NCBI GenBank assembly: GCA_013823625.1
Contig: PNMM01000001.1
Coordinates: forward strand, 992,001 to 1,056,000
Direction of reading: 5' to 3'
Origin: Microbacterium sp.
GTDB lineage: Bacteria; Actinomycetota; Actinomycetes; Actinomycetales; Microbacteriaceae
DNA: 64,000 bases
The notes under the pieces: model-generated
What the model was told of the DNA's origin: nothing
The model's database searches: none
Seen by the model: only the letters and a program-made list of their open reading frames with translations
Position numbers and translations under genes: made by a program
Shown here: positions 7,510 to 14,632 of the stretch, piece after piece
Position numbering within the stretch: position 1 is the first letter of the stretch
Layout of the letters: each line of letters begins with the position of its first letter

Positions 7510-8934
7510 ATGTTCAGTGATTCTTCCGAGGTGCTGAAGTTCATCAAGGACACGGATGTCAAGTTCCTCGACATTCGCTTCACCGACCTTCCCGGTGTCC
7601 AGCAGCACTTCAACATCCCCGCCTCGACCGTCGATGAAGACTTCTTCACGGTCGGCCAGCTGTTCGACGGCTCCTCGATCCGAGGCTTCCAGTCGATTCA
7701 CGAGTCCGACCTGCAGCTGATCCCGGACGTGTCGACCGCGTACGTCGACCCCTTCCGCACCGAGCGCACGCTCATCATGGTGTTCGACATCTACAACCCG
7801 CGTAACGGCGAGATCTACGCTCGCGACCCGCGCCAGGTGGCCAAGAAGGCCGAGAAGTACCTCGCCTCGACCGGCATCGCCGACACCGCATTCTTCGCCC
7901 CCGAAGCCGAGTTCTACATCTTCGACGACGTTCGCTACGAAGTGAAGCAGAACATGTCGTACTACTCGGTCGACTCGAGCGAGGCCGCGTGGAACACCGG
8001 TCGCGTCGAAGAGGGCGGCAACCTCGCCAACAAGACTCCCTACAAGGGCGGCTATTTCCCCGTGAGCCCGGTCGACCAGCACGCCGACCTGCGCGACGAC
8101 ATCGTCGTGAAGCTCATGGAGGTCGGCCTCGAGGTAGAGCGCAGCCACCACGAGGTCGGCACCGCCGGCCAGGGCGAGATCAACTACAAGTTCGACACGA
8201 TGGTCTCGGCCGCCGATGACATCTTGAAGTTCAAGTACATCGTCAAGAACACCGCCCTCGAGTGGGGCAAGGTCGCGACCTTCATGCCCAAGCCCCTCTT
8301 CGGTGACAACGGCTCGGGCATGCACACCCACCAGTCGCTGTGGAGCGAGGGCAAGCCGTTGTTCTACGACGAGGCGGGCTACGGCGGACTCAGCGACATC
8401 GCGCGCTGGTACATCGGCGGCATCCTCAAGCACGCTCCGGCGCTGCTCGCGTTCACGAACCCTTCGTTGAACTCGTACCACCGCCTGGTCAAGGGCTTCG
8501 AGGCTCCCGTCAACCTGGTCTACTCGGCCGGTAACCGCTCGGCGGCTATCCGCATCCCGATCACGGGCACCAACCCCAAGGCCAAGCGCATTGAGTTCCG
8601 CGCGCCTGACGCTTCGGGCAACCCGTACCTCGCGTTCGCGGTGCAGCTCATGGCTGGTCTCGACGGCATCATCAACAAGATCGAGCCGCACGAGCCCGTC
8701 GACAAGGACCTCTACGAGCTTCCCCCCGAGGAGGCCAAGGGCATTCCCCAGGTTCCCGGTTCGCTCGAAGAGGCGCTCGTCGCACTCGAGAACGACCACG
8801 AGTTCTTGCTCGCGGGCGGAGTCTTCACCAAGGACCTCATCGAGACCTGGATCGACTTCAAGCGCACGAACGAGATTCTGCCGGCCGCCCAGCGTCCGCA
8901 CCCGTTCGAGTACGAGCTCTACTTCTCGGTCTAG
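7510..8934 (+). CDS. glnA: type I glutamine synthetase
   Basis: [80 protein letters not shown]. Confidence 0.98.
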
Positions 8935-9074: not shown

Positions 9075-9170
9075 CTAGGGCGTGCCGTAGAAGCCGCGCT
9101 CGAACACCATGCGGGTGAGGCGGTTCGGGCGACTAGCTTCCTGATCGAGCCATGACGCGCTCTCGGCGGG
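9075..9170 (-). pseudogene. remnant of a glnE 3' end (GlnE C-terminal 31 codons plus stop)
   Basis: Translates to PAESASWLDQEASRPNRLTRMVFERGFYGTP*, gapless versus PAGGASRLEEDYLRTTRLARQVFERGFYGTP* of intact glnE; preceded by an in-frame TAG at 9171-9173. Confidence 0.85.
9079..9108. repeat. 30-bp direct repeat, left copy (insert boundary)
   Basis: ggcgtgccgtagaagccgcgctcgaacacc, identical to 11706-11735. Confidence 0.9.
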
Positions 9171-9201
9171 CTAAGCATTCGTCATGCAAGAAAGGGAAGA
9201 A

Positions 9202-9225
9202 GCCCTGACAGATGACCGTCAGGGC
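9202..9225 (-). terminator. terminator downstream of the tRNA-like gene
   Basis: Minus strand gccctgac-ggtcatct-gtcagggc followed by TTCTTCCCTTTCTT. Confidence 0.7.
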
Positions 9226-9232
9226 CCCCCCA

Positions 9233-9307
9233 AATACCCGGTGGGATTCGAACCCACGACCTCTCCACCCTCAGTAGAGCGCTCTAACCAGACTGAGCTA
9301 CGAGCAG
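9233..9307 (-). tRNA. tRNA-like gene, anticodon GAG, class I variable loop; identity uncertain
   Basis: ctgctcg ta gctcagtctggttagagc g ctcta ctgaggg tggag aggtc gtggg ttcgaat cccac cgggtat t: all four stems form; only the 1-72 pair is mismatched. Confidence 0.65.
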
Positions 9308-9419
9308 TCAACCAGCCCGAAGGCCGTGCGCAAACACTATCGAAGATGCCTCATGAGAGCAACGCGTTTCCGGTCTGAAGCCGCAAAGGCAAAGCGCCCC
9401 TCAGATTGGGTACCGAGGC

Positions 9420-11480
9420 TCAGTCGACTGGGTCGGTGATGCTTTCGTGACGCCAGCCGGTCAGGTATCGCTTTGCCAGCGATACCAGCTCCGACTCCCC
9501 GTCAACTGACTGAAGCACCTCTACGGCTCTGCGAAGATCGTGTTCAGTCCCATAGATTTCGATCAGATAATCCCAAGAGTAAGTCGCCTGGGTTTCGATG
9601 TGGCGTGACTCCGTTGACTGCGCGGTTCTGTGGCCTTGTACGGAGCGGAGCATGGCTCGAGTGACATCAGGATCGTCGAGAACTGCGAGTTGGACGGGAG
9701 CTCCTGTCTTCTCCATGACAAAGTGATACACGCCAGCGAGCGCCCACTCCTTTTCGACATCCGGAGGCGGGTTCGTGAAAGTCGCCAAGATTGCCGCGTC
9801 GAGCTCGTCCGCGACCTCGGTTGAAACAAGGTTCGGGGCTCGCTCACGCCGGCCGACGCTTTGCACGAAGTCGACCTTCGAGGAAAACGTGTTCGTCAGT
9901 TCGAAGATTTCCCTTGCAACATCCTCTCGCTTGGATGCGTCGTCGAACTGTTCAAGCATCCGTAGGACGGGCCGGATCACGATCACTGAAGGACGCACAG
10001 TGAAACCGGCGACCTGGGCCGGGCGCACTCGATGGGTCTGGTTGAGAATCGCAGCGGAGGATGTCGCTATTTGCTCTTCAGGAAAGTCGCCTTTGAATGA
10101 CTCGAAAGCGGCGAGGGTGTCCGGAAGCTCGTCGCTTGGGATGGAAGCGAGTCGCTCCTCAAGGCCCACTGGATTCGACATAGCGGACAGGAGTCCTTCA
10201 GCTTGCCGGAAGGCCATGAGTGAGGTCGGCGCCACTCGATCGAAGTAAATGCCAAGAAAGTCCTGATGCGCAAGACGATGCTCTTTGCGCCAGATTGGTT
10301 TCCACTCTGGTCCATAAGAGTAGTTCTCGATTTGGCGCTGAGCGGCCGGAAACACGCGACGGATAAGCGACTTTACGACCTCGGAATCTACGCCGGCAGT
10401 GGTCAAGAGTGCCTCAACTCGTTTCTTCTTGACAGGCGTCTCCTGAGCGCCGAACCCCGGAGCAGTTTCGGTGAGAACAGCCGAGAGCGCTCGAAGCTGC
10501 GCGAATAGCTCGGGGCGAAAAACACGGATGGCCTCGATTGCTAACAAATCCGCCGACTCAACCTCGGCGGCTAGAGCGACGAGCGTTGGCCGAACCGATG
10601 CGGCGAAGCGCACGACGTCGCGCATGTTGCCGATCAAGGGCTCGATCACCTCGAAGTAGATGTCCGGCCAGCGGGAAGTAGAGAAACGAGCTTCGCTGTG
10701 AAGGCTGGCGAAGATCGAGTCCAACGCCGCATAAACCTGCGAGCGAATCACCCCAGCGGGTGCGGCGGGCAGATCAAAGCTCACTTGAAGGATTTTCTCC
10801 AGGTACGCCCTGCCTTCGATACCCGGCTCTGTGAGTGCTTGTTCGACTCTCGCGCGGTCGAATGCGAGCAAGTAGATAACGTTCGGAAAGCTTGCCGTAA
10901 GTCGGACCAGCTTGAACACGTCGCGAATCTCATCGGAGGTGAGTCGGTCTATGTCGTCGATGACGACCACGATCGGCTGCGTTGCCTTCGCGAGGTGTTC
11001 GGATGCCTTCCGGTACTTGTCGCGCGCGCCCCTCTGGCGACTCATGCCCTTAGCGCCGCCACGAAAGATTGCTGCACCCAGAACGCCAAGTGGCCCGAGT
11101 AGACCAGCTACTGAGCTGATGGACTCACCGTACTGTTCAACCAGACTTCCAGCGGCCCTCAGCGATGGATCCTTGAGCTTCTTGAAACGTAACGCAAGCT
11201 CATCAAAGAAGTGGTCGATCAACTGCGGGGTTCCAGAGAACATCCAAGGGTTGAAGTCGATTACTACTAGCTCTGGCGCAGCGGCGAACTCCTCGCGCAT
11301 GAGGTTGATGAACGAACTCTTTCCGTGTCCCCACGGGCCGAGCACACCAACAACTGCACCGTGCGAGGCGTCGATCGTCCGGATGCTCTTGGCGAAGTCG
11401 CGAGCAAGCGGGGCCCGCCCGAGCAAGTCCTGCGAGGCAGAATCGATCGGGTTGTCGACCGGTGCAGTTGAACTAGCCAT
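9420..11480 (-). CDS. KAP family P-loop NTPase
   Basis: Walker A GPWGHGKSSFINLM, Walker B IVVVIDDIDRLTSDEI, KAP-type layout; visibly lower GC than flanks. Confidence 0.85.
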   Translation of the reverse strand: MASSTAPVDNPIDSASQDLLGRAPLARDFAKSIRTIDASHGAVVGVLGPWGHGKSSFINLMREEFAAAPELVVIDFNPWMFSGTPQLIDHFFDELALRFKKLKDPSLRAAGSLVEQYGESISSVAGLLGPLGVLGAAIFRGGAKGMSRQRGARDKYRKASEHLAKATQPIVVVIDDIDRLTSDEIRDVFKLVRLTASFPNVIYLLAFDRARVEQALTEPGIEGRAYLEKILQVSFDLPAAPAGVIRSQVYAALDSIFASLHSEARFSTSRWPDIYFEVIEPLIGNMRDVVRFAASVRPTLVALAAEVESADLLAIEAIRVFRPELFAQLRALSAVLTETAPGFGAQETPVKKKRVEALLTTAGVDSEVVKSLIRRVFPAAQRQIENYSYGPEWKPIWRKEHRLAHQDFLGIYFDRVAPTSLMAFRQAEGLLSAMSNPVGLEERLASIPSDELPDTLAAFESFKGDFPEEQIATSSAAILNQTHRVRPAQVAGFTVRPSVIVIRPVLRMLEQFDDASKREDVAREIFELTNTFSSKVDFVQSVGRRERAPNLVSTEVADELDAAILATFTNPPPDVEKEWALAGVYHFVMEKTGAPVQLAVLDDPDVTRAMLRSVQGHRTAQSTESRHIETQATYSWDYLIEIYGTEHDLRRAVEVLQSVDGESELVSLAKRYLTGWRHESITDPVD

Positions 11481-11701
11481 CTGGGTTACCGCCTAGTAGC
11501 TCTTGGGCAATCCGCAAGACACAACCCCATTCAGACTCGATCCCGACGGCGAAATCATCAGCGACATGTTCGACACCCAGTGGACCTTCATGCTCAGTTT
11601 CGTCATCCTCCATCCGGGAGTAGCTTGGGCGCCCCACGGGCGCCGACCACATCTCGTGCTCGTAATGCGAGCGTCTGTCATGTGCTCAGTGTTTCACAGG
11701 T

Positions 11702-14632
11702 TCACGGCGTGCCGTAGAAGCCGCGCTCGAACACCTGGCGGGCGAGGCGCGTGGTACGCAAGTAGTCCTCCTCGAGCCGCGACGCTCCCCCGGCGGGGTA
11801 GCCCATGAGGCGCGCGAGACCCTCCAACTGCGGGCGGTCAACCGGGAGCACATCCGCGGTCTTCGCGCTCCACAGCGTGAGCGCTGAGCGCGCACGAGAA
11901 GCGATGAGCCAGGCGGCACGGAGGCGCTCGGCGTCGACGGGGAGCACGAGCTCAGCATCCGCGGCCGCTGTCAACGCGTCGAGCGTCGAGGTCGTGGCGA
12001 GAGCGGGCACCGTCGCGGCGTGCTGCAATTGCAACAGCTGCACGAACCACTCGACGTCACTGAGCGAGCCGCGGCCGAGCTTGAGGTGTCGGGCGGGGTC
12101 GGCCGCTTGTGGCAATCGCTCGGCCTCGACGCGGGCCTTGATGCGGCGCACCTCGCGGGCGTCGGCCTCGGGAAACGCGTCCGGGTACCGCACGGTGTCG
12201 GCAAGGGCGGTGAAGTCGGTCATGAGCGACCCGTCACCCGCGACCGCACGCGCGCGCAGCAGCGCTTGCGCCTCCCACGTGAGCGACCAGCGCTCGTAGT
12301 AGGCGCGGTACGAATCGAGCGAGCGCACAATCGCTCCGTTGCGCCCTTCGGGCCGCAAATCGATGTCGAGGTCGAGCGGCAGGCGCAGGTCTTCGGTGAG
12401 GCGCTTGAGCTCGTGCACGATGTGCTCGGCGCGCGGTTGCGCGTGCTCCCCCGCCCCCGCGTCGCGATAGACGTACATCACGTCGGCATCCGAACCGAAG
12501 CCCAGCTCGGCGCCGCCGTAGCGACCCATTGCGACAATCGCGAACTCGATGCCATCGCCATAGCGGTGCACGAGCGACAGCACACCCGTGAGCACCGCGG
12601 TGTTCACGTCGCTGAGGGCTCGGCCGAGCTCGTCGACCGTGATGACATCGAGGATGCCCGCGAGGGCCAGGCGCAGCACCTCGCGTCGGCGTGCCGTGCG
12701 CAGCGCCTTCGCGGCCGCATCGATGTCGCCCTCGTAGCGGTCGACCGTCGCGCGCGACTCGTCGAGCAAGGCCGCGAGCGGGCGTGGGCGAAGCTCTTCT
12801 TCGTTCTCGAGCCACGCGGCACCCTCGGGAATGCGCTCGAACAACCCGCCCACATAGCGTGATGCCGTGAGCACGTTGGTGAGACGCTGCGCTGCGCCAC
12901 TCGAGTCGCGCAGCATGCGCAAGAACCAGTGCGTCTCACCGAGGTCGTCGCTCAAGCGTCGAAAGACGAGCAAGCCATAGTCGGGGTCGGCGCCTTGCGC
13001 GAGCCACTGCAGAATGACCGGCAAGAGCGTGCGCTGAATCTGCGCGCGCCGCGAGACTCCGCTCGTGAGCGCGGCAATGTGCCGCAGCGCACCCTTCGGG
13101 TCGGTGAAGCCAATCGCCGCGAGGCGGTCTTCAGCCTGGCCGCTGGTGAGGGCAAGGCCCGCATCAGGCAGGGCCGCCACTGCCGAGAGCAACGGACGGT
13201 AGAAGAGCTTCTCGTGCAGCGAGCGCACGGCGATCTTGGTCTGTTGCCACCGCTCGGTGAGCTCGTCGGCCGTGGTCGCGAGGCCCGTGGCACGCGCGAG
13301 CACGCGCAAGCGATCGACGTCGCGCGGCATGAGGTGCGTGCGCGTCATGCGGTCGAGCTGTACGCGGTGCTCGATGACCCTCAACAGTCGATAGTCGCGC
13401 GAGAACGAGGCAGCTTCTTCGCGACCGATGTAGCCGTGCTGCGCGAGGGCCGCGAGAGCCCCGAGGGTATCCCGCTGCCGCACTCGGTCATCGCTGTGAC
13501 CGTGCACGAGCTGCAACAGCTGGATGGTGAACTCGACGTCGCGCAAGCCGCCCGGGCCGAGCTTGAGTTGAACATCCACTTCGTCCGCGGGAATGTGCTC
13601 GGTGACCCGTTCGCGCATGCGCTGCACCGAGTCGACGAAGCCCTCGCGCTGCGAGCTGGCCCAGACGAACGGATGCACCGTCTCGCAGTAGCGCTCCCCC
13701 AGCTCGGCGTCTCCGGCCAGGGGTCGCGACTTCAGCAGCGCCTGAAACTCCCACGATTTCGCCCAGCGTTCGTAGTAGGCGCGGTGCGAGTCGATCGTGC
13801 GCACGAGGGCGCCGTCTTTGCCTTCAGGACGCAGGTTGGCATCAACTTCCCACAGCGGAGGTTCGATTCCCGGCTCTTGGATACCCCGCGCGGTCTCAGC
13901 CGCGAGGCGCGTGGCGATCTCGACGGCGCGCGCGTTGTCGAGCTCATCAGCCCCTTCGGCGACGTAGATGACGTCAACGTCGCTGATGTAGTTGAGTTCG
14001 CGAGCGCCCGCCTTGCCCATGCCGATGATCGAGAGCCGCGTGCGGGCCACCTCCTCAGCCGGGAAGGTGCTGACCGCTCGCGCGAGCGTCAGGCTCGCGT
14101 CGAGCGCTGCCCCGGCCAGGTCAGCGAGGGCCGCCGCGACGAGCGGCAGGGCCTCGACCGCGTCGGCGTGCTCAAGATCCCACGCGGCAATGCGTAGCAG
14201 CCAGCGCCGGTAGCGCACGCGCAGGGCCGTGCGAGCCTGCTCGACCTGGGCCGGCGAGGCTGCGGCGGTGCTGCCCTCCACGGCGGCCGCGAGGTAGCGC
14301 CGCAATTGCTCAGCGCTCGGCAGGGTGCGGAGCGGCTCGCGCAATGCCGCGAGCTCGGCCGGCCGGCGCCGCAGAAAGTCGCCCAAGCCTTCACTCGCGC
14401 CGAGCACCACGATGAGGCGCGCCGCCCAGGCGGGGTCGGCGAGCACGGGGCGGAGGGCATCCGGATGCTGCTCCTGCAGCCGCACGAGCAGCCGCAGCGC
14501 GCGGTCCGGGTCGGCAGCCGCACCGAACGCCTCGATGCGCTCGGCCCATTCGCCGAGCGCATCGCGAGCCGCGCCCAGCTCGGCAAAGCCGAGTCGGGCG
14601 AGTTCAGTCAGCGTCGACGGTTGTCGCGACAT
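11702..14632 (-). CDS. glnE: bifunctional [glutamine synthetase] adenylyltransferase/deadenylase
   Basis: Two nucleotidyltransferase modules (GMGKAGARELNYISDVDVIYV and AMGRYGGAELGFGSDADVMYVYR); adjacent to glnA2. Confidence 0.97.
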   Translation of the reverse strand: MSRQPSTLTELARLGFAELGAARDALGEWAERIEAFGAAADPDRALRLLVRLQEQHPDALRPVLADPAWAARLIVVLGASEGLGDFLRRRPAELAALREPLRTLPSAEQLRRYLAAAVEGSTAAASPAQVEQARTALRVRYRRWLLRIAAWDLEHADAVEALPLVAAALADLAGAALDASLTLARAVSTFPAEEVARTRLSIIGMGKAGARELNYISDVDVIYVAEGADELDNARAVEIATRLAAETARGIQEPGIEPPLWEVDANLRPEGKDGALVRTIDSHRAYYERWAKSWEFQALLKSRPLAGDAELGERYCETVHPFVWASSQREGFVDSVQRMRERVTEHIPADEVDVQLKLGPGGLRDVEFTIQLLQLVHGHSDDRVRQRDTLGALAALAQHGYIGREEAASFSRDYRLLRVIEHRVQLDRMTRTHLMPRDVDRLRVLARATGLATTADELTERWQQTKIAVRSLHEKLFYRPLLSAVAALPDAGLALTSGQAEDRLAAIGFTDPKGALRHIAALTSGVSRRAQIQRTLLPVILQWLAQGADPDYGLLVFRRLSDDLGETHWFLRMLRDSSGAAQRLTNVLTASRYVGGLFERIPEGAAWLENEEELRPRPLAALLDESRATVDRYEGDIDAAAKALRTARRREVLRLALAGILDVITVDELGRALSDVNTAVLTGVLSLVHRYGDGIEFAIVAMGRYGGAELGFGSDADVMYVYRDAGAGEHAQPRAEHIVHELKRLTEDLRLPLDLDIDLRPEGRNGAIVRSLDSYRAYYERWSLTWEAQALLRARAVAGDGSLMTDFTALADTVRYPDAFPEADAREVRRIKARVEAERLPQAADPARHLKLGRGSLSDVEWFVQLLQLQHAATVPALATTSTLDALTAAADAELVLPVDAERLRAAWLIASRARSALTLWSAKTADVLPVDRPQLEGLARLMGYPAGGASRLEEDYLRTTRLARQVFERGFYGTP
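11706..11735. repeat. 30-bp direct repeat, right copy (inside glnE 3' end)
   Basis: Identical to 9079-9108. Confidence 0.9.

Follow-up and report, generated by a model that had tools for sequence, protein, structure and literature searches.

How did a block of DNA come to lie at the stop codon of glnE in this Microbacterium genome while leaving the gene whole? In the window, the 64,000-nucleotide stretch of DNA analysed here, an intact glnE (11702..14632, minus strand; PF03710, 6.4e-84) converges with glnA1 (7510..8934, plus strand; PF00120). An insert of 2,627 bp sits precisely at the glnE stop codon, bracketed by 30-bp repeats. The initial annotation took it for an element that had entered by integrase-like recombination in the glnE 3' end and had restored the gene in doing so.

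The nearest relative, a congener termed G007 whose GlnE is 98% identical, carries the site uninterrupted. Its glnE and glnA1 are 135 bp apart, and the repeated core occurs there once. When the window is compared with this empty site, host DNA is seen to run from glnA1 up to and including the core in the left flank, and from the core onward into glnE in the right flank. The gap between the two genes measures 72-156 bp in 15 genomes of the genus (G007 and 14 others), and the insert is seen in this genome only. The initial annotation had called for this comparison across relatives, and had named as evidence against its reading an arrangement common to all of them, or a left copy belonging to an unrelated conserved gene. 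Neither was found. The precise site, the restoration of the gene and the displacement of its old end are borne out by G007 and the 15 short intervals, and the site-specific integrase is the part of that reading that remains presumptive.

The repeat pair is exactly as first reported. A direct repeat of 30 bp is identical at 9079-9108 and 11706-11735, both read on the minus strand, and a longer alignment keeps 41/44 positions. The right core (attR-like) lies in the last codons of intact glnE. The left core (attL-like) is followed by a host stop codon, TAG (9075-9077), and then by host downstream sequence; the bases after this TAG, GCGGGCACAGCATCCGTCGAC, are close to those 3' of glnE in G007. The peptide encoded on the minus strand by the left copy, PAESASWLDQEASRPNRLTRMVFERGFYGTP, aligns with native PAGGASRLEEDYLRTTRLARQVFERGFYGTP without gaps and shares 19/31 positions, a count that was reproduced. 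A blastn comparison of the left segment with the glnE end agrees (95 bp, 78%, E 3e-15), and a whole-genome search with GlnE recovers the segment at E 6.7e-4. Outside the core, the left copy shares 40/63 bases with glnE, where 63-mers drawn at random from the window share 18 +/- 3.6 (maximum 29 of 200). This excess and the blastn score dismiss a chance origin.

The initial annotation saw in the left copy a foreign or old glnE end. Its derivation from glnE stands, and a foreign coding end does not. Mismatches between the left copy and native glnE fall on codon positions 1, 2 and 3 in the ratio 8/5/9, whereas those of the genuine glnE genes of relatives fall mainly on position 3 (1/0/8 in G012 and 1/1/10 in G016). 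Two residues that are invariant in 25 GlnE C-termini, Tyr25 and Thr29, are missing. This spread and these losses argue that the 62 bp adjoining the left core (9109..9170, minus strand) are, to judge from their substitutions, glnE-derived, decayed and non-coding, not the working end of a foreign glnE.

Because this diverged arm adjoins a perfect core, it appears to have arrived already diverged, with the exchange having taken place inside the core. Could the copy instead have decayed where it stands? An old insertion might have kept its core by gene conversion while relatives lost the insert through the repeats, and a 30-bp direct repeat could indeed mediate precise deletion. However, with about 35% decay in the flank some 10 changes would be expected in an unconverted core, and none is observed. 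The cargo gene described below is absent from all other members of the genus, so that many losses would be needed. We regard an old insertion as very unlikely; a core matching at 30/30 positions beside a flank that is ~65% identical favours recombination within the matched core over uniform decay.

The other end of the insert has a different history. Its right arm (11664..11705, minus strand) holds the end of the last glnE codon, the stop TGA and bases that match the junction of glnE with the start of a lipoprotein gene in two relatives. Right arm and core together align with G012 over 72 bp (89%, E 1.7e-20) and with G010 over 68 bp (83%, E 2.7e-11), and the match runs ~41 bp past the stop. 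In these genomes and in G017, a lipoprotein gene of ~390 codons occupies the interval between glnE and glnA1 in place of the short spacer. Since the left copy continues as G007 does and the right as G012 and G010 do, the left copy is, on sequence comparison, the displaced end of the host gene, and intact glnE appears to take its last bases and its stop codon from the insert. The same match indicates that the attachment segment of the insert is chromosome-derived. As a circle, the insert would hold 62 bp of decayed glnE, the core and ~41 bp of lipoprotein-type arm, an attachment segment of ~135 bp in all. Dyad symmetry within the core is weak when judged by eye.

The lipoprotein-type junction start that still stands 3' of glnE in the window is also what would be seen had the lipoprotein arrangement been ancestral here, the cargo gene having replaced the lipoprotein gene and the short interval of G007 being derived. 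The left copy speaks against such a history, since it joins the glnE end directly to short-type downstream sequence like that of G007; from this the host was short-type before the insertion. A further remnant of the lipoprotein gene was looked for and none was found. We consider this replacement highly improbable. The lipoprotein genes directly 3' of glnE (L037, L038 and L039, in G010, G012 and G017) share 52-59% identity with one another. The gene is patchy among sister species, and full-length copies are confined to the glnE-glnA1 locus.

On balance, we favour a reading of the insert as a small, integrase-less genomic island with att-like flanks, which entered as a circle through one crossover in the core. 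The circle would have carried an attachment segment of ~135 bp, derived from the 3' end of a glnE gene together with what lies downstream of glnE in relatives of the lipoprotein type. A single crossover within the 30-bp core common to the circle and the glnE 3' end would have placed it in the chromosome. Host glnE would have been kept whole, with the island supplying its last bases and the TGA, and the original end of the gene would have moved to the far side. A site-specific recombinase presumably acted on this circular intermediate.

The main rival dispenses with that recombinase. A circular donor bearing a fragment with a glnE 3' end and a lipoprotein 5' end could have integrated by homologous, RecA-type single crossover. 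The 62 bp of glnE-like and ~41 bp of lipoprotein-junction sequence on the two sides of the core are chromosomal, which is also what homologous recombination needs and to that extent counts against an island. In favour of this route, the interval is highly variable across the family (75 genomes, with lengths between 12 bp and 12 kb), and its short and lipoprotein alleles are patchy between sister species. Against RecA-type exchange, perfect identity is limited to 30 bp, one flank is only ~65% identical, and the crossover falls right at the end of the gene. A 30-bp identity with such a flank is a poor substrate for RecA-type exchange. We think this route unlikely, while giving it more weight than an old insertion or a replaced lipoprotein gene.

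The sole long open reading frame of the insert is an intact gene for a KAP-family P-loop NTPase of 686 amino acids (9420..11480, minus strand; PF07693, 2.7e-45). The protein is PifA-like. The PADLOC PifA model (1.8e-66) matches residues 6-461 of 686 over model positions 5-486 of 720, leaving the C-terminal third unmatched, and the match to QatA is far under the cut-off for that family. The Walker motifs of the KAP P-loop domain, GxWGHGKSSF and VDDIDR, are conserved in six homologues. The gene is foreign to its surroundings. Its region has a GC content of 57-59%, as against 60-75% in the flanks, and no relative occurs in 25 other genomes of the genus. Homologues, mostly 35-47% identical, are scattered over many phyla of bacteria and archaea, with full-length examples at 40-47% in five Microbacteriaceae. 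By eye, some of their neighbourhoods look like defence loci. From its family and setting, the KAP NTPase is probably a phage-defence gene. PifA of the F plasmid shares with it the KAP P-loop domain; they differ in the C-terminal third of the insert protein, which is unmatched. In E. coli, PifA has a narrow target range (PMC8594841).

Relatives of this gene can travel with tyrosine integrases. In Leifsonia TF02-11 (L105), a KAP gene is grouped with genes for a tyrosine integrase and a relaxase-like protein next to a tRNA-Lys gene, and in G136 an integrase-like gene adjoins the KAP gene. None of 73 KAP loci has glnE beside the KAP gene. Neither IMG/VR viral contigs, queried with the KAP protein, nor phage records, searched for KAP, gave a match, and no solved structure related to the protein by sequence was found.

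The remainder of the insert is modest. A tRNA-like gene (9232..9308, minus strand; ARAGORN, and Rfam RF00005 at 52 bits) has the nominal anticodon GAG, a short variable arm, an imperfect acceptor stem and no CCA, and it is a copy of none of the host tRNAs compared. A functional tRNA-Leu was rejected here, given the short variable loop despite a leucine anticodon and an acceptor stem that contains a mismatch and G-U pairs; the gene is degenerate, as far as its predicted fold allows a judgement. Used together as a DNA query, the element end and the tRNA matched ordinary tRNAs only. A possible terminator hairpin, read from GCCCTGAC and GTCAGGGC and a T-rich run, lies 3' of the tRNA-like gene (9186..9225, minus strand). 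At the other end of the KAP gene, a putative open reading frame of 59 amino acids (11473..11652, minus strand) overlaps its start codon, and relatives of this frame were not found upstream of other KAP genes.

The open reading frames, Pfam and PADLOC reveal no integrase, transposase, relaxase or transfer gene between 9109 and 11705, where only the KAP gene, the tRNA-like gene and small open reading frames occur. The initial annotation was right that no integrase is left in the insert. A transposon is rejected in the lack of a transposase and of any listed inverted repeat pairing the ends of the insert. Nor does the insert qualify as an integrase-bearing island or prophage at a gene 3' end, for it encodes no integrase. 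With no integrase or transfer gene inside, the island would be either a relic of a larger element or a passenger mobilised in trans by the integrase of another.

Elsewhere in this genome (G000), another island is suggested by a tyrosine integrase of 377 codons at G000:C2:699397-700700 (L004, L191), which has a weak and possibly truncated match to a tRNA ~0.7 kb away. Two adjacent tyrosine-recombinase-like frames of 901 and 548 codons at G000:C1:335210-338521 (L003, L005) perhaps form a multi-recombinase element.

Integrases do occur on the other side of the interval. In G013, of the same genus, a phage-like element of 8.3 kb (L040:8559-16871) that encodes major-head/capsid and scaffold proteins as well as a tyrosine integrase is inserted at the glnA1 3' end, which is repeated around it (22 bp exact, 24/25 over 25); the integrase adjoins the glnA1 stop. 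In G074, a member of another genus (L266), an element of ~10.9 kb occupies the interval between exact 28-bp copies of the glnA1 3' end. Its integrase is 61% identical to that of G013 and likewise adjoins the glnA1 3' end. An integrase C-terminal remnant beside the glnA1 stop in G101 (L217:6510-6743) is perhaps a third, decayed case. By virtue of these glnA1-side integrases, the glnE-glnA1 interval is a target of site-specific integration, with the documented cases entering through the glnA1 wall. The elements of G013 and G074 resemble the insert in occupying the same interval and in having direct repeats of a gene 3' end. They differ in using the opposite gene, in carrying an integrase and, in G013, in having capsid and scaffold genes. 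Similarity between the glnE and glnA1 cores has a random-window p of 0.0025-0.014, too weak a signal to claim one integrase for both.

A more speculative extension is that the interval is a two-sided hotspot in Microbacteriaceae. One family of tyrosine integrases would act at the glnA1 3' end, and the 3' end of glnE would be served by a different, unseen recombinase that swaps short cargo, such as the defence NTPase and perhaps the patchy lipoprotein gene, along with the last bases of the gene. We offer this tentatively and think it has a modest chance of being correct.

Searches for further cases on the glnE side weigh against the island reading, as do the lack of an integrase within the insert and the weak dyad symmetry of the core; the glnE site has been seen in a single genome, and no integrase or second glnE end was found at other surveyed glnE genes. 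Among 400 genomes of the family, a pattern search found two copies of the core in this genome only, and the left copy used as DNA was likewise recovered here alone among 198 genomes of the order. A GlnE C-terminal profile gave no convincing second glnE end in ~300 Microbacteriaceae; a second match in G188 was rejected, since it spans 18 residues close to where the model begins and lies in a different frame and on a different contig. The initial annotation had suggested a search for integrases beside duplicated glnE C-terminal codons; 80 further genomes yielded none next to a glnE 3' end, and 0/80 intervals of up to 13 kb contained a KAP gene, another glnE end or a glnE-side integrase. Patterns of the glnE end were not found in IMG/VR viral contigs.

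The anatomy of the insert is consistent with a circle that integrated through a single crossover and restored the gene, as occurs at tRNA, tmRNA and some protein genes. Phage 21 and e14 integrate in the 3' end of icd, where an element-borne version replaces the end of the protein gene. The insert is alike in this replacement; these elements differ in their target and in carrying integrases and phage genes. That islands settle at the 3' ends of genes is well established, and in a limited literature search nothing relevant was found on glnE or glnA as an attB site. Reconstruction of the target gene is seen with many islands (PMC12884075). A close structural parallel is provided by the ssrA islands of Dehalococcoides, which are bounded by the 3' end of the tmRNA gene and a short direct repeat and also hold a pseudo-tRNA (PMC3146451); the insert likewise lies between the 3' end of its target gene and a short repeat of that end, and holds a tRNA-like gene. 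There, however, the target is tmRNA, the islands are many and in tandem, and a serine recombinase has been identified, whereas here a protein gene harbours a single island with no recombinase.

In its organisation the insert also resembles a cis-mobilizable element, or CIME (defined in PMC5704250). It is flanked by attL- and attR-like repeats, one of which completes the target gene, it lacks genes for integration and transfer, the target gene is whole, and close relatives have an empty site. The genomes surveyed yielded no related ICE or IME that shares its att sites, so that the insert is described as CIME-like and not as a CIME. It is a clean example of a one-gene, probable defence island with an empty site, and its attachment segment can be followed back to an allele in the chromosomes of relatives. 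In G013 and G074, the integrases directed at glnA1 lend themselves to direct testing. With these cases, a nitrogen-regulation gene pair joins the protein genes whose 3' ends take islands and stay intact.
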